Source: Salipaludibacillus daqingensis
GTDB taxonomy: Bacteria > Bacillota > Bacilli > Bacillales > Salisediminibacteriaceae
Length of the DNA stretch: 64,000 nucleotides
Assembly (NCBI RefSeq): GCF_029891575.1
Contig: NZ_JARZHF010000005.1
Coordinates: forward strand, 62,001-126,000
Direction of reading: 5' to 3'
The position numbers and the translations under genes are program-made. Below the pieces are notes generated by a model. The model was not told the origin of the DNA. It ran no database searches and worked only from the letters and a program-made list of their open reading frames with translations. This document shows positions 25,972 through 37,054 of the stretch, in pieces (positions within the stretch are counted from its first letter, which is position 1; the number at the start of each line of letters is the position of its first letter).

Positions 25972-27303
25972 TTATACGATGATCAACATCCATAAATAAA
26001 GTCCTGTTAGCGTGATAAATAAAACAGGAATCGTTATGACAATACCTACCTTGAAGTAATATCCCCACGAAATTCTAACGCCTTTTAATGCTAATACGTG
26101 TAACCATAATAATGTTGCTAAAGAACCAATTGGCGTAATTTTTGGTCCTAAGTCAGAACCAATCACGTTGGCATAAATAAATGCGTCTTTCATCGGTCCA
26201 ACCAAATTTGCATCATTAATTGCAAGAGCGTTGATCATAACTGTTGGCATATTGTTCATAAGGGAAGACAAAATAGCTGCAATGAAGCCCATAGAAAGTG
26301 TTCCAACAAACATTCCACCGTTTGCTGATTTCTCCAATACGCCAACTAAGACATCTGTTAACCCCACGTTTCTTAACCCAAAAACAACGACGTACATTCC
26401 GATAGAAAATACAACAATTGCCCAAGGAGCACCTTTCATGACTTGCCCCGTATTTACTGCTGGACTCCTTCGAGCCATTAACAAAAAGAAAATTGCGATG
26501 GTCATCGCTACAAACGAAACAGGAAACGTCATTTGCTCACCTGAAATTGGTCCAGTAATATATATAAATTCACTAACAAAGTATCCAATGAGCAACAAAC
26601 TTAAGACGAACCATGACATACGGAACATTTTATGATCCTTGATCGCTTCTTTCGGAACTCTTAACATAGACATATCATACGTTTTAGGAATATCTTTTCT
26701 AAAATAAAAATAGAGAACAAAAATACTAGCAGCTAAAGAAAACATATTAGGTACGATCATGTACGTTGCGTATTCAATAAATCCAATTCCAAAAAAGTCG
26801 GCTGATACGATGTTCACTAAGTTACTGACAATCAAAGGTAACGAGGTAGAATCAGCAATAAATCCACTTGCCATAATAAAAGGTAAAATCATCGCATCTT
26901 TGAATTTCAGTGCACGTACCATTGCTAAAACAATTGGAGTAAGAATAAGCGCTGCCCCGTCATTTGCAAATAAGGCTGCTACAACAGCTCCTAATAACGA
27001 AACGAAAACAAACATTTTCACTCCGTTCCCTTTGGCAACTTTCGCCATATGTAAAGCCGCCCATTCAAAAAATCCTATTTCATCGAGAATTAAGGAAATA
27101 ATTATGATACCAATGAATGTTAAAGTAGCATTCCAAACAATACCCGTTACTTCCCCAACATCTTGAAAATTAACAACTCCAACTGTTAATGCTAACACTG
27201 CCCCTATTGTCGCTGACCACCCAATCGATAAGCCCTTCGGTTGCCAAATGACTAATACTAATGTAAATATAAAAATTGCTGAGGCTAATAAAACAGACGT
27301 CAT
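25972..27303 (-). CDS. arsB: Arsenite efflux permease ArsB
   Basis: A 443-residue integral membrane protein with about 12 helices that exports arsenite (and antimonite), alone or driven by ArsA. The family-typical stretch [20 protein letters not shown] is present, as are [14 protein letters not shown] and [19 protein letters not shown]. The ATG at 27303 follows AGGAGGA; an upstream extension has no ribosome binding site. It is the last gene of HesB-like-arsD-arsA-arsB and is separated from arsA by 132 bp with a hairpin. NhaD-type Na+/H+ antiporters are related, but the arsDA context decides. Confidence 0.93.
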
Positions 27304-27366
27304 GATATTCCTCCTGTGTACTTTTGTTATAAAATCGTGATGACTTTCTATTTTCACAAAAATATA

Positions 27367-27397
27367 AAACGCCTCATGCCTATCTCTAGAGGCGTTT
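27367..27397 (-). terminator. Hairpin between arsA and arsB
   Basis: AAACGCCTC (27367-27375) pairs with GAGGCGTTT (27389-27397). The minus strand continues TATATTTTTG, so it may act as a partial terminator or as an RNA processing/stability element inside the operon. Confidence 0.6.
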
Positions 27398-27435
27398 CAG
27401 ATGTCTTACAATGATAAGTAAATAGAAGACTCTGC

Positions 27436-29199
27436 TTAATATACCATCATTTTTAATTTTTCCAAGCCGATGACTTGATCTGCTTGCCAAGGGACAATAA
27501 CTGTTTGTGGTGATAATTCATCTTTTACTTTTTCAATCCACTGCTGCTCTGAAAATGATCTACCTTTCAAAACTGGATCCCTCGTTTCTGTTGCTTGGAA
27601 ACTTTGATTTATAATCCACCATGCTGGTTCGATACCAGCTCGACGAAGGTCATCTTGCAGACGACTTGCTTCAAATACTGGCGTTGCTTCTGGCAATGTA
27701 ACTAATGACACAAACGTTTGATTTGGATCCCTCAACCTCGGAAGAAGCTTTCTGACTGACTCAGGCATATCTCCAGCTGTTCTCTCTACTTCACGGTGAT
27801 AAGACTCAGCTGCATCTAGTAGTAATAGTGTGTGACCTGTAGGAGCCGTGTCAATAACTACAAAAGCTCCTTCTGCTTTTTCTACAACTTCTGCAAATGC
27901 ACGAAAAACAGCAATCTCTTCTGTACAAGGGGACTCTAAATCTTCTTTAATAAAGGCTAATTCATCTTCGGTTAAATCATTGCTTACATTTTCAAGTACT
28001 TGTTTTTTATAATTTTCGACCTCTGTTTTTGGGTCCACTTTACTAACATTTAATGTTCCCTCAAAAGACTCATTATTCAAAACGTGAGTTAAATGGGCAG
28101 CAGGATCAGTTGTTGTCAAATGAACATCATGACCTCGCTCAGCCAATCCAACAGCAACTGCAGCTGCCATTGTTGTTTTTCCGACGCCTCCTTTGCCCAT
28201 TGTCATAAACACACCATGTCCTCTCGGTTCAAGGTCATCAACAATCGCTTTAATGGAAGGAAGGTCATTGGCTGCTTTAGTTGTTTCTAACTCCTCTACG
28301 AATTCTACTTTTTCTTGAAAGAACTTTCTTAATGCATCAAGTCCAGTTAAGTTAAACGGAACTAACGGTAGAAAGTAAGTATCTGTATCTTTCATTCCCA
28401 TTGGAATAGAATCTAGTGCTTGTTGTTGTTTTTCCTCTAATTTAACCGCTACTTCATCATCTGATTGACGATCAAATACACCATTTATAATTAACGCTTG
28501 ATTTTTTATACCAATATCCGCTAATTCTTTCCCTGCTCGGTCTGCTTCTTCAAGGGAAGAAGAGTCTGGTCTTGACACTAACACAAGCACAGTTTCATCA
28601 CCGTTCGATAATGCCTCAACTGTTTTTGCATACAAACCTTTCTTTTCTTCTAATCCAGCTAGAGGTCCTAAACAAGATGCCCCATTTTCATTATCATCTA
28701 AGAAGTCGCTCCATGCTGTTGGTAGCTGTAATAGTCGCAACGTATGACCTGTAGGGGCTGTATCAAATATAATATGATCAAATTGATCCGTTGCTTCTCT
28801 ATTAGCTAATAAGTTTGTAAATTCATCAAAGGCAGCAATCTCAACCGTACAAGCACCAGATAGCTGTTCTTCCATGTTTCTCAACGCTGATTCTGGTAAT
28901 TTCCCGCGGTATGGCCCGATCATTTTTTCACGATATTGGTAAGCTGCTTCTTCTGGATCTAAATTTGCTGCATATAGATTAGGGACAGCGTCAATTTTAG
29001 ACGGTTCATTTTTTAATTCCATCCCAAATACGTCTTGCAAATTGGAAGCTGGGTCCGTACTGACAATCAGTACTTTTTTCCCTTGATCAGCTAATGCAAC
29101 AGCTGTAGCACACGCTGTTGACGTTTTCCCTACGCCACCTTTGCCTGTAAAAAATAAATGTCTCGTAGTTGAAATATCGTTTGGTTGCAATCTTTTCAT
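27436..29199 (-). CDS. arsA: Arsenical pump-driving ATPase ArsA
   Basis: A 587-residue ATPase that energises ArsB. It has two homologous halves, each with a P-loop: GKGGVGKT at residues 19-26 and again near 333-340. Each half also has a signature DTAPTGHTLRLL or DTAPTGHTLLLL. Three cysteines near 115 (GACTVEI), 175 (ASCLGPL) and 424 (SPCTEEI) occupy the positions of the metalloid-binding cysteines of E. coli ArsA (113, 172, 422). Start follows AAGGAG. It is 26 bp downstream of arsD. Confidence 0.97.
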   Translation of the reverse strand: MKRLQPNDISTTRHLFFTGKGGVGKTSTACATAVALADQGKKVLIVSTDPASNLQDVFGMELKNEPSKIDAVPNLYAANLDPEEAAYQYREKMIGPYRGKLPESALRNMEEQLSGACTVEIAAFDEFTNLLANREATDQFDHIIFDTAPTGHTLRLLQLPTAWSDFLDDNENGASCLGPLAGLEEKKGLYAKTVEALSNGDETVLVLVSRPDSSSLEEADRAGKELADIGIKNQALIINGVFDRQSDDEVAVKLEEKQQQALDSIPMGMKDTDTYFLPLVPFNLTGLDALRKFFQEKVEFVEELETTKAANDLPSIKAIVDDLEPRGHGVFMTMGKGGVGKTTMAAAVAVGLAERGHDVHLTTTDPAAHLTHVLNNESFEGTLNVSKVDPKTEVENYKKQVLENVSNDLTEDELAFIKEDLESPCTEEIAVFRAFAEVVEKAEGAFVVIDTAPTGHTLLLLDAAESYHREVERTAGDMPESVRKLLPRLRDPNQTFVSLVTLPEATPVFEASRLQDDLRRAGIEPAWWIINQSFQATETRDPVLKGRSFSEQQWIEKVKDELSPQTVIVPWQADQVIGLEKLKMMVY

Positions 29200-29225
29200 A
29201 AGAAGCGCTCCTTTTCTAAGACCTT

Positions 29226-29588
29226 TTATTTTGATGTTAAACCTATTGTCTTTTTAGGAAGATTAACTGTCAAATCTTCTTCATTAAATCTCAGCCATTC
29301 AGCAAATTCACTTAACGTTGGATATCGTCCGTTTAAAATTAATCGCCCATCAACTACAATAGCTGGCAATCCTTCTGGGCCTTCTTTTTCTAATAGTTCA
29401 GTCACACCTTTATGCTCTGTAAAGTATTCTGCTTCTTGAGCTAGATTGTACCTTGAAACATCATATCCTTCATTCACCAACTTCATAATGGTTCTGGAGA
29501 TTCTTGTTAACTCAGGATCGACACTAGGTCCACATACCCCTGTGGCGCAGCATAATGCCGGATCAAATATTTCTATTTTTGTACTCAT
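29226..29588 (-). CDS. arsD: Arsenite metallochaperone/regulator ArsD
   Basis: A 120-residue cytoplasmic chaperone that passes arsenite to ArsA. The start IFDPALCCATGVCGPSVDP carries the Cys13-Cys14-Cys19 triad equivalent to Cys12, Cys13 and Cys18 of E. coli ArsD, with thioredoxin-like sequence after it (LPAIVVDGRLILNGRYP). The C-terminal vicinal cysteine pairs of plasmid ArsD are absent, as in many chromosomal homologues. Starts at 29588, 29591 or 29597 are all possible; GGATG supports the first two. Confidence 0.95.
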   Translation of the reverse strand: MSTKIEIFDPALCCATGVCGPSVDPELTRISRTIMKLVNEGYDVSRYNLAQEAEYFTEHKGVTELLEKEGPEGLPAIVVDGRLILNGRYPTLSEFAEWLRFNEEDLTVNLPKKTIGLTSK

Positions 29589-29720
29589 CATTAACATCCT
29601 TTCGTCCCTTTATATTTTCGTTATGTTATTGTTACGTGTTGATGTTGAATAATCTCTTTGGCCGTACTAAAGTCTCACTGTTTTAAAATCAATAATTAGT
29701 TTTCATTTAGCTATATTTTA

Positions 29721-30002
29721 TTAACAGCCTTGATTTAATCCCTCTAAGACAAGACTTTCTCCTTGGGGTGTTTGCTGGTAATCAATTGTAACGTTTTCTA
29801 AATCCTTATAAATGGACTTTTCAAATGCCACTTTGATTTGATTTATATCTTCAACTATATCTTCTTCATTAGGGTCATCCATCGCTAATCCAACACTGGG
29901 ACCGCAGCATCCTCCTCCATTACTAAATATTTTAATATTCTCCGCATCATTTTCTTTTAACATTACTAACAAAAAATTCTTTGCTTCATCTGTTATAAAC
30001 AT
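29721..30002 (-). CDS. HesB/IscA-like protein of the ars operon
   Basis: A 93-residue protein of the HesB/IscA fold family. It has vicinal cysteines Cys32-Cys33 in NGGGCCGPSVGLAMDD and a last residue Cys93. Canonical IscA has three spaced cysteines, so this is a divergent branch. It resembles HesB-related proteins in which some members carry selenocysteine at the second position; here it is Cys. As the first gene after the ars promoter it may bind arsenite or protect an iron-sulfur cluster, but no function has been shown. Ribosome binding site AAGGAG. Confidence 0.7.
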   Translation of the reverse strand: MFITDEAKNFLLVMLKENDAENIKIFSNGGGCCGPSVGLAMDDPNEEDIVEDINQIKVAFEKSIYKDLENVTIDYQQTPQGESLVLEGLNQGC

Positions 30003-30028
30003 TATTCACACTCTCCTTAATCGATTCT

Positions 30029-30084
30029 CTATATAATAAATCAATTATATAACAGGAACTTTATATAATCAATGCGTTATATAA
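30029..30084 (-). promoter_or_regulatory. ars promoter inside a 16-bp-periodic TTATATAA array
   Basis: The minus strand has -35 TTGATT (complement of 30067-30072), a 17-bp spacer and -10 TATAAT (complement of 30044-30049). The palindrome TTATATAA occurs at 30045, 30061 and 30077, with CTATATAA at 30029, a spacing of exactly 16 bp. The array spans -35, -10 and the expected start site, as a repressor operator would. The regulator is not encoded in this window. Confidence 0.7.
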
Positions 30085-30111
30085 GTTTTATTTAACTACT
30101 TTGTGAAGGTC

Positions 30112-30262
30112 TTGACACATGTTTGCTTTTATTAGTTAATGATAATCGAATAAATATCTTAATTCTTACATAAAACGATCCTACAAATAAGAACTAAGTT
30201 TCTGTAGTATTCCTTGTCAGTATGAAACACAAATAAAGCCGACTTTTCAAAGTCGGCTTTAT
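30112..30262 (+). ncRNA. Candidate small RNA between ars and arr operons
   Basis: A plus-strand -35 TTGACA (30112-30117) with a 17-bp spacer and weak -10 GTTAAT (30135-30140) would start a transcript near 30147. It would end at the hairpin 30233-30262, giving roughly 115 nt with no open reading frame. The promoter match is partial, so this is a candidate only. Confidence 0.25.
30233..30262. terminator. Terminator of the arr operon
   Basis: A 14-bp perfect stem ATAAAGCCGACTTT (30233-30246) with AAAGTCGGCTTTAT (30249-30262), with T-rich flanks on both strands. Confidence 0.85.
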
Positions 30263-30268
30263 CTTTTA

Positions 30269-31420
30269 TTATACTGCGCTTGGTTGAATTTTCTTTTTTG
30301 TAGGTTTTTTGTCCTTCTCCTCATGAGTTGACTCACTGAGATTAAATATTTTTGTGCCTACCATATAAATAACAACAGTGGCTGCCATCGCTCCAACAAA
30401 GATCAACCATTCTGTAACCGTTGTTGAGTAAGTAGTCACTTCTCCATAAGGTTGAGATAATTGACCACCGATGACCGTGACGTATTTGTCGAAATACATG
30501 CCAAACAATACTAGGAAACTAACAGCTACTGCTACAACACTTGTTCGTTTACCAATAATCATCAGTAGTGGAATGATGAGCCCTAATGCTAATGCTCCGC
30601 CCCAATACATCAATGCATATTCACCGTTAAATATCAGCGCGAAATCAGGTGTTCCAGTATAGAACATTGTTATAAGACGCCATGCGTTAAACCCGAGAGC
30701 TACTGCAATCAAAATACCCATCAATTTAGATAACCCTATTAATGCTGCATCGACTTTCTCAGGTAACTTCTTGTTACTTAGTTTGTACGTGAAATAAGTA
30801 AAGATAGTTAAACAAGCAATTCCTGTCAACAATGCAGATAATACGAAAAATACACTTGTTGCTCCGCCAAACCATAATGGTCTCTGAACAACTACTGCAA
30901 AGATTCCACCAAGAATACTTGTAGCTGCAACCGCTCCAGCAAGTGTCATATATGATGCATAATGCATCACTTTCTCATTTTTCGTGTGCATTGCTATAAA
31001 TTCAACTAATAGTAAAACAACGTAAACACCATACGTTGCTCCCATCCACCACATTGGAGCTTGTAAATTTGGTGATGTAATAAATAGGTATGCTCGATCT
31101 AAACGCCCTAAATCCATTGCTAATACTAATAGTCCTGGAATAAGGACTGCTAAAGCCAGATAGATTGCTCTTTTCCCAAGAAAGTCAAACTTTTTAAATC
31201 CTAACACGTGGGAAGCAGATGCAATCATACACATTCCACTTGCCATTAAAGCTAGAAATACGTAGGCAACAATTAATAAGTTCCATGGGACTTGATCAGT
31301 TGACCCAAACACTACTTGCCCTTGCACAAGAGTATTCCCCATTCCAAAAATACCTGCTGCTACAATTGCTAGCAAAATGACCATTGCAATTAAACTTTTC
31401 CCTTGCCATTTCATAGCCAT
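30269..31420 (-). CDS. arrC: NrfD-type membrane subunit (ArrC-like quinol anchor)
   Basis: A 383-residue integral membrane protein with about ten helices of the NrfD/PsrC family, which oxidise menaquinol and pass electrons to a partner ferredoxin subunit. Recognisable parts are the N-terminal LVQGQVVFGSTDQVPWNLLI and MYWGGALALGLIIPLLM. The ATG at 31420 has AAAGGAGGG at good spacing. It is the last gene of the arr operon, 26 bp after the polyferredoxin gene. The name rests on operon context. It would link the menaquinone pool to ArrB. Confidence 0.8.
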   Translation of the reverse strand: MAMKWQGKSLIAMVILLAIVAAGIFGMGNTLVQGQVVFGSTDQVPWNLLIVAYVFLALMASGMCMIASASHVLGFKKFDFLGKRAIYLALAVLIPGLLVLAMDLGRLDRAYLFITSPNLQAPMWWMGATYGVYVVLLLVEFIAMHTKNEKVMHYASYMTLAGAVAATSILGGIFAVVVQRPLWFGGATSVFFVLSALLTGIACLTIFTYFTYKLSNKKLPEKVDAALIGLSKLMGILIAVALGFNAWRLITMFYTGTPDFALIFNGEYALMYWGGALALGLIIPLLMIIGKRTSVVAVAVSFLVLFGMYFDKYVTVIGGQLSQPYGEVTTYSTTVTEWLIFVGAMAATVVIYMVGTKIFNLSESTHEEKDKKPTKKKIQPSAV

Positions 31421-31446
31421 GTAAACTCCCTCCTTTGAATCATCCC

Positions 31447-32547
31447 TTACCAATCGGACAGTAACGAACGTCTTCTCGATTCTTTTATTTCACAGTCTTC
31501 ACATAAATTATTCTTTACATTTTTTTTATCTCCACATGTTGGACATTTATCTTGTTCAACAATTTGTAAAGTATGGTTTTCCAGTATCTCCGCTAAATGT
31601 TTAATTGGTTTCTTTTCAATAAAGTCGCATACCTTTTCGCAAATATCACAGTCGACACACTGTTCCGTGTAAAATTGCAACGATGACGTATTTTCAGCTT
31701 CTACGACTTGCAAAGCACCTGTCGGACATATACTCGAACATTTTTGGCAAACGGTGCACTCCTTACTCACTTTAAGTTTTGCTACTTGAAGTTTGGTTGA
31801 TAATAGCTCACTTTTATCTAGATGAAGGCTTTCTTTGTTTTTTTGAAGATAGGTCATTAAATATTTCCGTTTCTCTGTCTGACCAATTTTTTCTTTTAAA
31901 TTTGACACTTCTTTATATGAATCCAAGAACAAATCGGCTATTTGCCCTTTCGTTTCATTGGAAGACATTTTAAATAATTCTCTTCGATTGTAAGTGCGAG
32001 TTCTACCTGTCTTTTGTTCTAGTTGATTTATGACAGGAACCTTATCTTTCAAGATAGACTGGCGATTCCAATCTTCGAGCCATTTCAATCCTGTATTTGG
32101 ACTCCAGTTAACTTCACATGTTTTACAAACTTGAGAATCACAAAATACTTCACTTCGTTTATCATATAGTTCACTAGTCATTAGATACTCAGGTGTTAAA
32201 GCACTTAAGCAAGGAAATGCTACGTCATGACCTTGTTTTGATTTTTGCTTTTCACATGTGAATGTTACTGCATCTTTCTGTGAAATTCGGCTTTCATATT
32301 TGTTCATCATTTCAGACTCATAGTATAGTGCATCTGTCGGGCAGGCGTGTGTGCACTGGCCACAGCTTGTGCAAAGATCTTTATCTAAGTGAATCTTTCC
32401 ATCTTTCATTGACAAAGCTTCACTTTGACAAGCAACCACACATTTATCACAGTTACTATGTTTATATCTTTCTCTTAAACACTTTTTTTCATTAAATCTT
32501 AACGATGCTCTTTCCTTAACCCTTTGAAATAAAAACCTTTGCCACAC
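31447..32547 (-). CDS. Polyferredoxin with C-terminal zinc-ribbon-like motif
   Basis: A 366-residue iron-sulfur protein. The N-terminal part has CDKCVVAC and CTSCGQCTHACP, and a middle part has CDSQVCKTC. The second half has CTVCQKCSSICP and CVDCDICEKVC, and the end has CPTCG and CEDC. That gives up to four 4Fe-4S sites plus a rubredoxin or zinc-ribbon-like knuckle. The GTG start at 32547 follows AAAGGGGGTG. It lies between torD and nrfD in the arr operon. It is not a standard ArrB and may be an extra electron carrier or an assembly factor. Confidence 0.7.
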   Translation of the reverse strand: MWQRFLFQRVKERASLRFNEKKCLRERYKHSNCDKCVVACQSEALSMKDGKIHLDKDLCTSCGQCTHACPTDALYYESEMMNKYESRISQKDAVTFTCEKQKSKQGHDVAFPCLSALTPEYLMTSELYDKRSEVFCDSQVCKTCEVNWSPNTGLKWLEDWNRQSILKDKVPVINQLEQKTGRTRTYNRRELFKMSSNETKGQIADLFLDSYKEVSNLKEKIGQTEKRKYLMTYLQKNKESLHLDKSELLSTKLQVAKLKVSKECTVCQKCSSICPTGALQVVEAENTSSLQFYTEQCVDCDICEKVCDFIEKKPIKHLAEILENHTLQIVEQDKCPTCGDKKNVKNNLCEDCEIKESRRRSLLSDW

Positions 32548-32595
32548 ACGCTCACCCCCTTTGAATAATAAAATTATAATCTTAACATCAACATG

Positions 32596-33231
32596 TTACT
32601 GCATTGATTCTACTTTTAAATTTTCCATTTCTAGTTTGAATATTTCTCTCGTAAGAATCGAAAGTTTCTTGTAATAATTATGGGTTGCATGCTCTTCTAA
32701 ACGATCTGTAAACTGGAAAATCCAACGTCCTAAATGATTATTAATAAATTCTTTAATTAAAACTAAATAATTCAATTCATTCGTATCAATATACATGTAG
32801 TACAAATAATAGATAAATTCCAGCTCGACAGCTATATGATCTGCTGGTTCATGAAAATCAGCAGTCTTTTCGATCCCTGCTTTTTCATACAACCTTTCAA
32901 CCTGCCTTGTCGACTGACCTTGAATTTGTCTAGCTTCTTCTAAATAAACAGACCCGTAAGGCGGTGCTAACACATCAAATGGTCCAACAAATAGTTTTGA
33001 ATAATCGATCAATATGGATTGATTTTTTTTCAAATCTTCTTTTCCAAAGATTTTTTTGACTTTCTCTCCTTCTTTATGAAGCTCTGGAAAAATTGCTTCA
33101 ATTGCTTCTAAAAATGGCGGGAAAAGATCTTCATGATCTTGCTCTGGTTTCTTGTATAACTCACTTAAGACTTTAAAAATATTTGCTTTATAATGAAATT
33201 CCCCTAAAGTATGTTGTTCCAATGTTGTCAC
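32596..33231 (-). CDS. arrD: TorD-family molybdoenzyme chaperone (ArrD-like)
   Basis: A 211-residue cytoplasmic redox enzyme maturation protein. TorD-like proteins bind the Tat signal of a molybdoenzyme until the cofactor is inserted. Family-typical parts are YSKLFVGPFDVLAPPYGSVY and HEPADHIAVELEFIYYLYY. The start is uncertain: the GTG at 33231 is almost on top of AAGGGG, and a TTG at 33222 has better spacing. It follows arrB by 24 bp, consistent with serving ArrA. Confidence 0.82.
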   Translation of the reverse strand: MTTLEQHTLGEFHYKANIFKVLSELYKKPEQDHEDLFPPFLEAIEAIFPELHKEGEKVKKIFGKEDLKKNQSILIDYSKLFVGPFDVLAPPYGSVYLEEARQIQGQSTRQVERLYEKAGIEKTADFHEPADHIAVELEFIYYLYYMYIDTNELNYLVLIKEFINNHLGRWIFQFTDRLEEHATHNYYKKLSILTREIFKLEMENLKVESMQ

Positions 33232-33255
33232 ACCCCTTGATCATCGTGTATTTAT

Positions 33256-33942
33256 TTAAAAGCTTCGAGTATAAAATACTTTTGGTTTTGTGCCTAATTC
33301 ATCTTTTAATGTTTTATGTTCTAGTTGAAGAAATTGATGAATTTTATCATCTGGATCATTTAAATCTCCCACATACATTGCTTCTGATGGACAACGCTCT
33401 ACACAATAAGGTTGCTCATCTCTTGCTAGGCGGTGATCACAAAGTTGGCACTTTTCGACAATACCACGATAACGAATCGCTTCGTAATTATAATCACGCT
33501 CAGGATTATAATAAGGAACTTCTGTACCAACCTTATCTTTAATCTCTTTTGGTGTAGCTGATAATTCACTCCATGCTTCTTGCTGATTCCAATATTCATG
33601 TGGATTGTTTTTGTTATAAGAGATCACCCCGTAAGGGCATGATGCCATACATGCTTTACAACCAATACACTTATCAGCATCGTGTAAAGTCAATCCGTTT
33701 TCGTCTTTATACATAGCCGTCACCGGACACGCTTTGATACATGGAGCGTTGTCACAGTGATTACATAACGTTGGCATAAACTCGTATTTCACATTTGGAA
33801 ATGTTCCTGTTTCATTTGAGATAAAGTGCATCCAGTTCATGCCTGTATCTGTATTATTCTCATTTTTGCATGTAACTGAACAACCGGCACAACCAATACA
33901 TTTTTGTAAGTCAATTGTCATTGCATAATTTTTTTTAGCCAT
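33256..33942 (-). CDS. arrB: Four-cluster ferredoxin subunit ArrB
   Basis: A 228-residue electron-transfer subunit of a complex iron-sulfur molybdoenzyme. The four cysteine groups are CIGCAGCSVTC, CNHCDNAPCIKAC, CIGCKACMASC and CQLCDHRLARDEQPYC with CPSEAM. This is the layout of DmsB/PhsB/ArrB proteins. It would relay electrons from the membrane NrfD-type subunit to ArrA. Start follows GGAGGTGA. It sits 26 bp downstream of arrA. ArrB lacks its own Tat signal here, so it is probably co-exported with ArrA. Confidence 0.9.
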   Translation of the reverse strand: MAKKNYAMTIDLQKCIGCAGCSVTCKNENNTDTGMNWMHFISNETGTFPNVKYEFMPTLCNHCDNAPCIKACPVTAMYKDENGLTLHDADKCIGCKACMASCPYGVISYNKNNPHEYWNQQEAWSELSATPKEIKDKVGTEVPYYNPERDYNYEAIRYRGIVEKCQLCDHRLARDEQPYCVERCPSEAMYVGDLNDPDDKIHQFLQLEHKTLKDELGTKPKVFYTRSF

Positions 33943-33968
33943 GATACGTCACCTCCGCACTTCTATTT

Positions 33969-36521
33969 TTATACTTTCTCTACTCTAACTCTCGTTTGTC
34001 CACCATGCCTTGCTCCGCTTCCACTCATCGCTTCATGCACAGGTGCTAAGATCGTATTATTATTTCCACCTCGTGCTATTTGTTTTTTCTTATCAAGTGA
34101 TGCAATATGACCGTATGCCCAGTGACCTTGACCGAAACATTTCGTCACAACTCCTGGTCGGGTTCCTTCCCAGAGCTTCGCTTTCACCGTAATACTCCCC
34201 GTTGGTGTTGTTAATTTCACTTCATCGCCATTTTTGATACCTAATTCTTTTGCATCAATTGGATTTAATTTTGCTACATCATCCCAAGCTTCATCTCCAG
34301 GATCAACATTTTTGAATTCTTGATACCAAGTGCCGTTTGCTGAACGTCCTTCTCGATTTAATTTGGAACGATGTTCTGAAAAAATGAGAGGATATTCGTT
34401 CTCATCACCAACACGATAAGCTGGCTCATAGTGTGGTACAAAAGCAAGTTCGCCTCGCTCTGTTTGCAGAGCTGCTTCCATGACATCATCAATCGATGCA
34501 TCATGTTTATCAGCGTGTTCTTGCAATGCGACCTTCAAAGTTTCACTGTAAAACTCAAATTGACCTGTTTCTGTTCCCCAATTTCCATCCCATTTTTGAC
34601 GGAAACGATAAGGAATCGAGTTCCACGTTCCAATTCTTTTTAATTCTTCCCATCCATCTATCGTATCTCCTTCTTTTTCAACGGAAGGGTCCCAAAGTGG
34701 CTGAGTGTACATTTTTGTTGCTATTTCATTAAATTCCTCCCCATTTTCAGGATGTTTACCTGTTTCTGGATCGGCGAATTCATTTCTAAAATAATCAATT
34801 AAGTTAGAGAAGCCTTTCTTTTCCAACGCTTCTCCTAGCATCCAAGGAATTTCGGTTTCATCAATTTTAATATCAAATGGCGAATCTATAATTTTATTTT
34901 GCATATGAAGATGTGTATGCAAGTTACCGTTACTTCCTCGAACAGGACTAAGTCTCTCAAACTGTGAATGTGGAACCGGAAGGACAATGTCTGCAAAATG
35001 AGTCTGTTCGGCTGAATTCACTGTCAAATGAACCATAAACGGTAATTTAGCCAATGCCTCATCCCATCGATCTGTTCCTTGATTACTGAAATTAAAGTTG
35101 TTCCAATAGCTAATAACAACTTTCAAATCATATGGATCACTATTATTAATTGCATCTGCTACCGTGTTTGTCGGCTTCACCCCGCCTGACTTGCTATCTT
35201 TTAGTGCGGGTAATTCAAGTCTTCCACCGTGGTCCACTCGTTCCATACTGTTACCTTGTTCAGCAATTTCATCTATATAATTCTCGATATCAGGAAAATC
35301 ATTTATTGGAACACTCTCTCCACCACAAATGACGCCACCTTCATTATCTGCTGATCCAACCAATCCGTTTAGCGCTGCTTGAGCCATTGCTGTATATCCA
35401 CCACGAACTGCCATACTTGAACCTGGTGAGGAAAAAGAAATAGCTTTCGGCGCTGCACGACCAAAATCTCTAGCAACTCGGTAAATTTGCTCTTCTGGAA
35501 TTCCAGATCTCTCTGCTGCCCAAGCTGGTGTTTTATCTTTCAAAGCTAAGTTCCACCACTTTACTACTCCGTGCGTTTGAATTTCTTCAAATTCTTCTTC
35601 ATCAACCGTTTCGCCTTCTACGAAACGATTCACACCATCTTTAAAGTCACCTACAAAAGGCTTATACCAAAGTTCTTCAGTAAGCAAAACATGTGCAATC
35701 GCTACTGCTAATGCGCCATCTTCTCCTGGAATTACTGGCAACCATTCATCAGATTTGGCTGCAGTAGTGGAGAGTCTAGGATCAATACAAGCTAATTTCG
35801 CTCGACCTTTTAAGTCACCCCAAATACTTGCTGTATGTGGAACTTGTCGATTAGATGCAATTGGATCGCCACCCCAGAAAATTTCATAAAAGGTATTCGC
35901 ATGGTCGTAATCGGCATAACCCCAATACCTTTCTGTGTAATAACGTCCAAATTTCTCTGATTCAGCACAAATTGAGCTGTGTGACACATTATTTGGAGTT
36001 CCGATAATTTTTGGTAAATTGCCATAAAGAATACCATTTAGTGCAGTGTAACGCCCACGCCACACTGAAAACTTATGTGTTTCATTGTTATCTCGTAACT
36101 CCATAATTTTATCAGCAATCGTATCCATTGCTTCTTCCCAAGAGATCGGAACAAACTGTGGATCTTCATCTCTGCCTTTATTCGGATTCGTTCTTTTCAT
36201 AGGCTGTTTAACTCGATCAGGATCATATACTTGCTGTAAACCTAGATGAGATCGAACACATGAATGACCATGGTTCGCTTTTGCGTTAGGGTTACCTCTA
36301 ACTTTCGTCGCTCTCCCATCAATACGATAAATCTGCACGGCGCACCATGCTGTACACCCTTGACAGACACTTGCAATCCATTCTCCCTGTTCTTTGTTTT
36401 CATTACTTGCACTTGTTTTTGTTGAGAACGCATTCAATACTGGTTTCGTCTGCGTTGCTCCAGCTGCAAATAATCCCGTTACTGCAGATGCCTTAAGAAA
36501 ATTCCTTCTGTTCAGTTTCAC
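33969..36521 (-). CDS. arrA: Dissimilatory arsenate reductase catalytic subunit ArrA
   Basis: Molybdopterin guanine dinucleotide enzyme reducing arsenate to arsenite as terminal electron acceptor. The 850-residue protein is close to the 854 of Shewanella ArrA. It has a Tat signal (RRNFLKA, about 5-11) and cluster cysteines Cys53, Cys56, Cys60 and Cys88. Cys185 in HSSICAESEKFG is the expected molybdenum ligand. Arg157 (RGRY), His181, Lys190 and Tyr202 keep exactly the spacing of the substrate residues reported for Shewanella ArrA (165, 189, 198, 210). The GTG at 36521 after GGAGGTG is preferred. Arsenite oxidase ArxA or a polysulfide-type enzyme are the alternatives. Confidence 0.88.
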   Translation of the reverse strand: MKLNRRNFLKASAVTGLFAAGATQTKPVLNAFSTKTSASNENKEQGEWIASVCQGCTAWCAVQIYRIDGRATKVRGNPNAKANHGHSCVRSHLGLQQVYDPDRVKQPMKRTNPNKGRDEDPQFVPISWEEAMDTIADKIMELRDNNETHKFSVWRGRYTALNGILYGNLPKIIGTPNNVSHSSICAESEKFGRYYTERYWGYADYDHANTFYEIFWGGDPIASNRQVPHTASIWGDLKGRAKLACIDPRLSTTAAKSDEWLPVIPGEDGALAVAIAHVLLTEELWYKPFVGDFKDGVNRFVEGETVDEEEFEEIQTHGVVKWWNLALKDKTPAWAAERSGIPEEQIYRVARDFGRAAPKAISFSSPGSSMAVRGGYTAMAQAALNGLVGSADNEGGVICGGESVPINDFPDIENYIDEIAEQGNSMERVDHGGRLELPALKDSKSGGVKPTNTVADAINNSDPYDLKVVISYWNNFNFSNQGTDRWDEALAKLPFMVHLTVNSAEQTHFADIVLPVPHSQFERLSPVRGSNGNLHTHLHMQNKIIDSPFDIKIDETEIPWMLGEALEKKGFSNLIDYFRNEFADPETGKHPENGEEFNEIATKMYTQPLWDPSVEKEGDTIDGWEELKRIGTWNSIPYRFRQKWDGNWGTETGQFEFYSETLKVALQEHADKHDASIDDVMEAALQTERGELAFVPHYEPAYRVGDENEYPLIFSEHRSKLNREGRSANGTWYQEFKNVDPGDEAWDDVAKLNPIDAKELGIKNGDEVKLTTPTGSITVKAKLWEGTRPGVVTKCFGQGHWAYGHIASLDKKKQIARGGNNNTILAPVHEAMSGSGARHGGQTRVRVEKV

Positions 36522-36553
36522 TACATCCACCTCCAATTAATTTCCCTACAAAC

Positions 36554-36757
36554 TTAATGTCTTTCTGTTGTGTCACTTTCTAAAGATGATTTAGTTTCAT
36601 TATCATCATCTGATGCGAGATCCTTTGTTGATTTCTTAAATTCCTTCAACGTGTCTCCAACCGCTTTTCCCATTTGAGGCAATTTCTTTGGTCCAAAAAT
36701 AATAAGTGCAATGATCAAAATCAAAATCAATCCTGGAATTCCAATATTTGCTGGCAT
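36554..36757 (-). CDS. tatA: Twin-arginine translocase subunit TatA/E
   Basis: A 67-residue protein with one membrane helix ([15 protein letters not shown]), the conserved FGPKKLP hinge, an amphipathic helix and a polar acidic tail. TatA forms the protein-conducting part of the Tat system for folded, cofactor-containing proteins. It lies 32 bp upstream of arrA and is the first gene of the operon, so it is a dedicated copy for ArrA export. Ribosome binding site GGGGGTGGGG. Confidence 0.93.
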
Positions 36758-36824: not shown

Positions 36825-36870
36825 TTGTGATCTATATCACTTTCTACAGTTTTATTATATATTTATATAA
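36825..36870 (-). promoter_or_regulatory. Fnr/Crp-like site upstream of tatA-arrA
   Basis: TTGTGATCTATATCACTT (36825-36842) fits the Bacillus Fnr consensus TGTGA-N6-TCACA except for the last base. TTATATAT-TTATATAA follows at 36855-36870, sharing the palindrome found in the ars promoter. The gap to 37054 otherwise holds only the acylphosphatase upstream region. Confidence 0.55.
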
Positions 36871-37054
36871 AAACTAGATGGGGGCGAAGTTGTGAATAAA
36901 CTCAAAAGATACTGTGTCTTATTTGTGAATTAATGAACATAATAATATCCAGATAGTATTATCTATCAAAACGTTATTAATATTTTTCTTAAGTGTAAAT
37001 TTTACTAACATTGGGAAAAGACATAAAAAACACTCTTTATAAAGGGGGATTTAC

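Follow-up and report, generated by a model that had tools for sequence, protein, structure and literature searches.

Arsenate respiration and arsenite efflux as two predicted, separately controlled units in an arsenic island of Salipaludibacillus daqingensis

The window analyzed here is a 64,000-nucleotide stretch of the draft genome of Salipaludibacillus daqingensis (4.58 Mb; contig C5, positions 62001–126000; window G+C content of about 36%). It contains a ten-gene arsenic island at 25972–36757, entirely on the minus strand, with the order tatA-arrA-arrB-torD-polyferredoxin-nrfD followed by HesB-like-arsD-arsA-arsB in the list of open reading frames (ORFs). The island very probably consists of two separately controlled units, an arsenate-respiring arr unit under the control of anoxia and an efflux unit under the control of ArsR. 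Arsenic enters water and brines through arsenate respiration. The biology of the island is largely known, as its arr and ars halves are both of known kinds.

Gene content and the boundary between the two units

The families of the ORFs were assigned by Pfam and NCBIfam profile searches, with the bit scores set against curated cut-offs; the matches lie well beyond chance level. Together with the ORF coordinates, these assignments bear out the first-pass annotation, which had placed ten genes on one strand in this order. All on the minus strand, the arr half is composed of tatA (36554–36757; 67 residues; PF02416, 75.8 bits; NF011430, 100.7 bits, passing the curated cut-off), arrA for the catalytic subunit (33969–36536; 855 residues with an RR signal; TTG start as listed, with a GTG just downstream also possible), arrB for the iron-sulphur subunit (33256–33942; 228 residues), arrD for a TorD-type chaperone (32596–33231; 211 residues; PF02613, 100 bits), the gene of a polyferredoxin aligned by hhalign to the ArxB2 (ArxB') family (31447–32547; 366 residues) and arrC for an NrfD-type membrane anchor (30269–31453; 394 residues; PF03916, 92.8 bits). 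In the ars half, on the same strand, the HesB-like gene (29721–30002; 93 residues; TIGR01911, 54 bits against a cut-off of 66; no Pfam match) encodes the Cys form of its family (CCGP, Cys93). It is followed by arsD (29226–29597; 123 residues; NF033727, 121 bits, cut-off 90), arsA for a two-domain ATPase (27436–29199; 587 residues; TIGR04291, 890 bits, cut-off 650) and arsB for an arsenite permease (25972–27357; 461 residues; TIGR00935, 760 bits, cut-off 415). ArsD, ArsA and ArsB thus all exceed their curated cut-offs, which assigns them to the ArsDAB arsenite efflux system. Rfam searches at gathering thresholds gave no RNA-element match in the window.

The two halves are divided by an intrinsic-terminator-like hairpin of 15 pairs with a T-rich tail (30231–30264, minus strand), which lies at the end of the arr unit where a terminator had been proposed. 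Between this hairpin and the HesB-like gene, the promoter region of the ars genes contains three tandem TATATAA-N8-TTATATA sites, predicted ArsR operators, which occupy 30030–30083 and start at 30030, 30046 and 30062 with a 16-bp period. The three exact matches compare with 0.05 expected in the 64 kb, where no further match was found up to one mismatch. The same type of site lies about 30 bp before the arsR of an arsR-arsD pair on contig C9 of the genome (L122:9633–9654), and before ars genes in relatives of the genus (e.g., L087, L084, L085, L086 and L089); in all it was matched in 22 loci, several of them overlapping. The three promoter sites and the same site before the C9 arsR therefore point to a trans-acting ArsR that would bind three operators, and we infer that the C9-encoded protein would control the efflux unit through them.

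With the terminator and a second promoter region bearing three ArsR-type operators, the arr and ars halves look like separate transcription units. The first-pass annotation had read the region as one complete respire-and-export island; this interpretation is supported by the gene content and the ArrA clade, but the two functions appear to be transcribed apart.

ArrA belongs to the respiratory arsenate reductases

By its position in the tree, its RGRY motif and its 52% identity to ANA-3 ArrA, the window ArrA is, as far as sequence tells, a true respiratory arsenate reductase. The maximum-likelihood tree of 33 rows (TtrA was not among them, nor was the broken arrA of locus L127) placed the window ArrA and ANA-3 ArrA within a 23-row clade with support of 100/100. 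Outside this clade branch a pair of ArrA-like proteins, as its sister, next an ArxA-type pair and finally PhsA and others; some of the branches in the outgroup are long, with a warning from the program that their joins may be false. The phylogenetic check, set beforehand, thus grouped the window protein with ANA-3 ArrA and apart from the ArxA-type proteins and PhsA. In agreement with this, a phmmer search against solved structures gave ANA-3 ArrA (6CZ7) with an E-value of 1.9e-287, followed by a thiosulphate reductase chain with 6.8e-39, and the TtrA model scored 79 bits on the window ArrA as compared to 1083 for the ArrA model. Identity amounts to 90% with Salipaludibacillus keqinensis (genome G397), 83% with S. 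halotolerans and 83% with genome G297, and ranges from 81 to 90% against the other ArrA proteins of the eight-row clade to which the window belongs.

The window ArrA also has a Cys in the column that we take to be the Mo-Cys column of ANA-3 ArrA, and its N-terminus carries RRNFLK (TAT_signal, E 4e-4, 20.6 bits, cut-off 22.7). A Tat signal is thus found together with an adjoining ArrB, whose best match is NF041715, a four-cluster subunit. Passages of PMC6549141 distinguish ArrA, with (R/K)GRY, from ArxA, with XGRGWG; the window has RGRY, the ArxA-type rows have YGRGWG, and the window protein falls outside the pair from Cereibacter (labelled ArxA-type from its motif and gene order) and Sulfuricella (named ArxA in the same passages). 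A catalytic subunit other than ArrA was rejected on the basis of the RGRY and Mo-Cys columns and the tree placement.

The curated models weigh against this assignment, as the ArrA model NF041714, by far the best family, scored 1083 bits with a cut-off of 1600, and ArrB scored 298 bits against the NF041715 cut-off of 450. The sub-cut-off ArrA score need not count against ArrA: the NF041714 cut-off is passed by no genome in samples of 397 from the order and 398 from the phylum, and so looks set for other lineages. A different substrate for the enzyme (antimonate, selenite, polysulphide, thioarsenate or some other oxyanion), or oxidation of arsenite as by ArxA, is very improbable: although substrate change is described as frequent in the dimethyl sulphoxide reductase family in passages of PMC10100899, and a sister group of ArrA with no assigned substrate exists, the identity within the eight-row clade, its union with ANA-3 ArrA, the ArrA-type RGRY and the adjoining arsenite efflux genes all oppose such a change here.

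The sister group consists of L062 (G132:C2, 2948–19901) and L134 (G475), with ArrA-like proteins 39–40% identical to that of the window, RGRY motifs and ArrXSR-type genes; L062 also carries arsR, ACR3 (in two ORFs), arsC, arsD, arsA, Fnr-type boxes and the 39-bp repeat described below. The sister-clade enzyme may reduce a different oxyanion of arsenic or antimony; the literature passages on AnrA gave no placement relative to ArrA. In L127 (G483:C357, 2705–5248), an in-frame TGA interrupts arrA well past the position of the Mo ligand, reflecting either a broken gene or a sequencing error.

The arr promoter suggests anaerobic control without adjacent ArrXSR

No ArrXSR genes were found within about 12 kb on either side of the window arrA, which places the locus outside the ArrXSR-controlled arr loci. 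We compared the 450 bp upstream in the nine-row ArrA subgroup (window, L087, L022, L024, L056, L057, L058, L060 and L061) and the sister-clade locus L062. A 39-bp inverted repeat, GTAGGGA-N25-TCCCTAC, is present upstream in all seven ArrXSR-bearing loci of this set (six exact, one mismatch in L061) and absent upstream in all three without ArrXSR (window, S. keqinensis and S. halotolerans). Among 211 loci, 12 contain the exact repeat; these come from seven genomes, and each is an arr or arr-like stretch. It has no match anywhere in the window genome or in that of S. keqinensis, and one match each, with other spacings, in two of the eight genomes of the genus sample (source genome counted in). 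Both ArrXSR and the repeat are retained in G297, the sister of S. halotolerans, so that their joint loss probably happened twice: ArrXSR and its predicted operator would probably have been lost together in Salipaludibacillus and, separately, in S. halotolerans.

The arr promoter contains a box that we label Fnr/Crp-type from general knowledge, AGTGATATAGATCACA (36826–36841), which lies 84 bp upstream of the tatA start with one mismatch to TGTGA-N6-TCACA and is identical, flanks included, in S. keqinensis. Further upstream, a block with TTCACAAATAAGACAC and ATTCACA (36891–36940) is conserved in the window, S. keqinensis and S. halotolerans promoters and contains a second one-mismatch Fnr-like match; this block and TTCACAAA are presumably ResD-like. 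A box with at most one mismatch was found within 450 bp in nine of the ten loci of the subgroup plus L062, and in none of 14 others. Genome-wide, the pattern occurs 150 times per strand as compared to 80 for the reversed control, and a regulator of the Crp/Fnr family that has a Cys cluster at its C-terminus is encoded on contig C2. These features suggest that arr would be under anaerobic control.

Several observations weigh against this account of arr control. Within the window, the number of Fnr-type boxes does not exceed chance (four found, 2.46 expected). The 39-bp repeat is absent at 12 other scanned ArrXSR loci (L052–L055, the last with only 128 bp of upstream sequence, L124, L125, L126, L128, L129, L130, L132 and L133), four of which (L052–L055) come from the same order; the repeat is therefore limited to this subgroup, and its reading as an ArrR site would hold at best for one subgroup. 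Moreover, contig C4 of the genome encodes a distant ArrXSR-like set that could act on arr in trans. This set (L123; G000:C4, 2756–10461) comprises a binding protein (34% identity), a full-length kinase (about 34–35%, residues 3–624) and a response regulator (48%), and would leave arr arsenate-controlled through a changed operator. We consider this unlikely: these genes surround an ethylbenzene-dehydrogenase-type protein and ABC-type genes, the genome contains no match to the 39-bp repeat, and S. keqinensis, which has the same arr promoter blocks, shows no full-length kinase match among those listed. Control of arr by anoxia is the preferred reading. It had been noted that arrSKP and arsR are absent from the island, which is correct, and these missing regulators are now partly explained, arsR being encoded elsewhere and ArrXSR apparently lost together with its operator.

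The polyferredoxin is an ArxB2-family protein and a common arr component

Twenty cysteines of the 366-residue polyferredoxin are conserved without exception in 22 aligned sequences, that of the window included. Its profile matched ArxB2 in hhalign with 99.9% probability and an E-value of 1.6e-31 over 346 columns, and blastp gave 4.9e-21 and 3.8e-18. Sulfuricella ArxB2 covers positions 12–358 of the 362 positions of the profile, and Cereibacter ArxB2 matches in two pieces. Cys98, Cys113, Cys141, Cys144 and the C-terminal CxxC-CxxC are common to the window ferredoxin and both ArxB2 proteins; of the eight middle cysteines, four are absent in Cereibacter ArxB2 and one in Sulfuricella ArxB2. The four-cluster B subunits tested gave only short-piece matches to the profile. 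The full-length match, the extra cysteines and the C-terminal CxxC-CxxC place the protein in the ArxB2 ferredoxin family.

To place these genes among other arr loci, 25 loci were compared, 23 from the ArrA clade and the two sister-clade loci, which were kept out of the counts. The 23 omit G210 (4.3-kb contig) and L059 (same genome as L024) and include L127 (9.7-kb contig); ArrXSR was scored as present with at least two of its three genes. The polyferredoxin is present in 18 of the 23 loci (absent from L024, L058, L126, L127 and L128), tatA in 15, and adjacent ArrXSR in 18 (absent from the window, L087, L024, L127 and L131). Thus tatA and the polyferredoxin, which the first-pass annotation had regarded as special additions, are ordinary in Bacillota arr loci. 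The downstream NrfD-type ArrC is common to the window, L087, L022, L024, L057, L058, L060 and L061, which form the eight-row window clade (100/100), and nine other loci have a different ArrC, located upstream. In passages of PMC2500031, arr clusters are described as arrCAB or arrAB; the B. selenitireducens operon has arrD and arrC in addition, according to parts of PMC12607644.

In passages of a 2019 paper, ArxB2 is described as specific to arx, that is, to arsenite-oxidizing systems. Among the matches listed in a partial literature coverage, the term arxB2 appeared only in that paper, and the passages from Fusibacter and Desulfitobacterium papers contained no arr-linked ferredoxin. Because it occurs in 18 of the 23 arr loci, the ArxB2-type ferredoxin is not tied to arsenite oxidation. 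A paralogue on contig C10 (G000:C10, L136:11268–12203), located beside two other molybdoenzymes, lacks only the C-terminal CxxC-CxxC; since it shares all but these four cysteines, the family extends beyond arx and arr. Furthermore, genomes G377 and G276 carry the ferredoxin at the same chromosomal site as the island (L083:5344–6447 and L084:4137–5240), with no ArrA match at E<=1e-50 in either genome. These arr-less copies are intact and under purifying selection (ratio of nonsynonymous to synonymous substitution rates, dN/dS, 0.10; dS 0.11) and may therefore serve another partner.

The HesB-like gene

The HesB-like family, matched in 145 of 397 genomes, has a Cys form, as in the window, and a form with an in-frame TGA, which is a probable selenoprotein; the window genome carries one TGA-form gene, on contig C1. 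For neighbourhood counts (window and L142–L211) we took the 30 loci returned first and 40 (20+20) picked by hand, not strictly in order, and related rows are non-independent. With this limit, ars genes lie near 30 of 31 Cys-form rows (11/11 within about 1.5 kb on each side, window included; 19/20 within about 4 kb) and near 7 of 39 TGA-form rows (1/19 and 6/20, respectively). Cys32, Cys33 and Cys93 are invariant in 11 aligned Cys-form sequences, which would be in keeping with binding of arsenite or iron-sulphur. An ars operon with a HesB-like gene has been reported before, namely that of CDB3 with orf7, in passages of PMC4562236.

Outside these counts, G276 has a TGA-form gene between ACR3 and arsC in its arsenic site (L084:9137–9415). 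The source genome also encodes two molybdopterin oxidoreductases with one in-frame TGA each (G000:C13:53262 and G000:C1:127091), presumably formate-dehydrogenase-like, and because of these two genes the organism probably makes selenocysteine.

A modular arsenic site and the pairing of arr with ars

In the genus sample, the site between the acylphosphatase gene and plsC holds arr with HesB-arsD-arsA-arsB in the window, arr with arsA-arsB in S. keqinensis, a ferredoxin, arsA, ACR3 and arsC in G377 and G276 (the latter also with the TGA-form HesB-like gene), HesB-arsD-arsA-ACR3 in G399, HesB-ACR3 in G338 and G400, and no ars or arr gene in G398; ACR3 and arsC were recognized by visual inspection of the sequence and through comparison. 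The site is, on this comparison, a modular arsenic site, where arr appears to have been gained or lost as a block.

This variability would also fit a mobile arr operon that landed by chance at an existing ars site without any function in common, as would the scarcity of shared stretches: an arsenite efflux gene lies within the fetched stretch in only 6 of the 23 loci (window, L087, L053, L054, L127 and L130), and in one further case, G152, ars genes lie just beyond it (L164). An ACR3 match in L058 was dismissed at 21% and not counted. However, two species retain the pairing with synonymous sites near saturation and the amino acids of both halves conserved, and passages of PMC6429310 describe the pairing as common in arsenate respirers. 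A chance adjacency is accordingly improbable.

Phages and plasmids were rejected as homes for such an operon: eight pattern-matched stretches of viral contigs encode no relative, the one plasmid record at E<=1e-60 is an ArxA-type gene, and the 128 plasmid records at E<=1e-15 are all below 60% identity.

Comparison with known arsenic systems

We take G297, and thus its locus L058, to be B. (Salisediminibacterium) selenitireducens strain MLS10, on which the likeness of L058 depends. The arr operon of B. selenitireducens, as given in parts of PMC12607644, resembles the window unit in arrA, arrB, the TorD-type arrD and the NrfD-type arrC; the arrABDC content of G297 fits this operon, with the order ABDC in L058. 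As compared to it, the window adds tatA, the ArxB2-type ferredoxin and the ars genes directly downstream, but lacks the adjacent ArrXSR and its 39-bp repeat.

Adjacency of arr and ars presumably also occurs in ANA-3. On plasmid pSheB of Shewanella sp. O23S, arrAB lies beside arsDABC (passages of PMC6429310), as arr lies beside ars in the window, whereas the window has ArrC, ArrD and the HesB-like gene, with no arsC or arsR in the island. In parts of PMC5908839, arrXSR is reported as absent from Gammaproteobacteria, and the ArrXSR sensor protein studied there is that of Chrysiogenes.

The arx cluster arxB2ABCD (passages of PMC6549141) shares the ArxB2-family polyferredoxin and the B, C and D subunits, whereas clade and motif make the window catalytic subunit an ArrA, and the window ferredoxin gene follows arrD instead of preceding the A gene. 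Finally, the ars1 operon of Bacillus sp. CDB3, arsRYCDATorf7orf8 in parts of PMC4562236, likewise combines a HesB-like gene with arsD and arsA; unlike it, the window island lacks arsR, arsC and an orf8-type gene, and uses ArsB.

A model for the island and its implications

We propose that the first unit produces a Tat-exported molybdenum enzyme that would support growth on arsenate. Electrons from menaquinol would enter at the NrfD-type ArrC and reach ArrA by way of ArrB, so that arsenate would be reduced outside the membrane, and ArrD, probably together with the cytoplasmic ArxB2-type ferredoxin, would help in the maturation of the enzyme before its export. In the second unit, the ArsA-driven ArsB pump would clear arsenite from the cytoplasm. 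The first unit would be turned on by oxygen lack via Fnr, perhaps together with ResD, rather than via ArrXSR, the usual arsenate-sensing system; the second would be freed by arsenite from an ArsR encoded elsewhere in the genome and bound at the triple operator.

More broadly, and only tentatively, arsenate respiration may here have become uncoupled from arsenate sensing, with ArrXSR and its operator lost, arr controlled by oxygen and ArsR acting in trans at the efflux unit, and the ArxB2-family ferredoxin may belong to Bacillota Arr systems in general, mostly unnoticed so far, and be able to persist under selection after the loss of arr. Three points are new: arsenate sensing is predicted to have been lost together with its operator, ArsR is predicted to exert control in trans via a triple operator, and the ferredoxin is identified as an ArxB2-family protein. 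With the 39-bp repeat, the ArrXSR system would gain a concrete target on the DNA. If arr responds to anoxia alone, the enzyme would be made before arsenate is sensed, and the presence of an ArxB2-type ferredoxin in arr operons changes the expected role of this protein.

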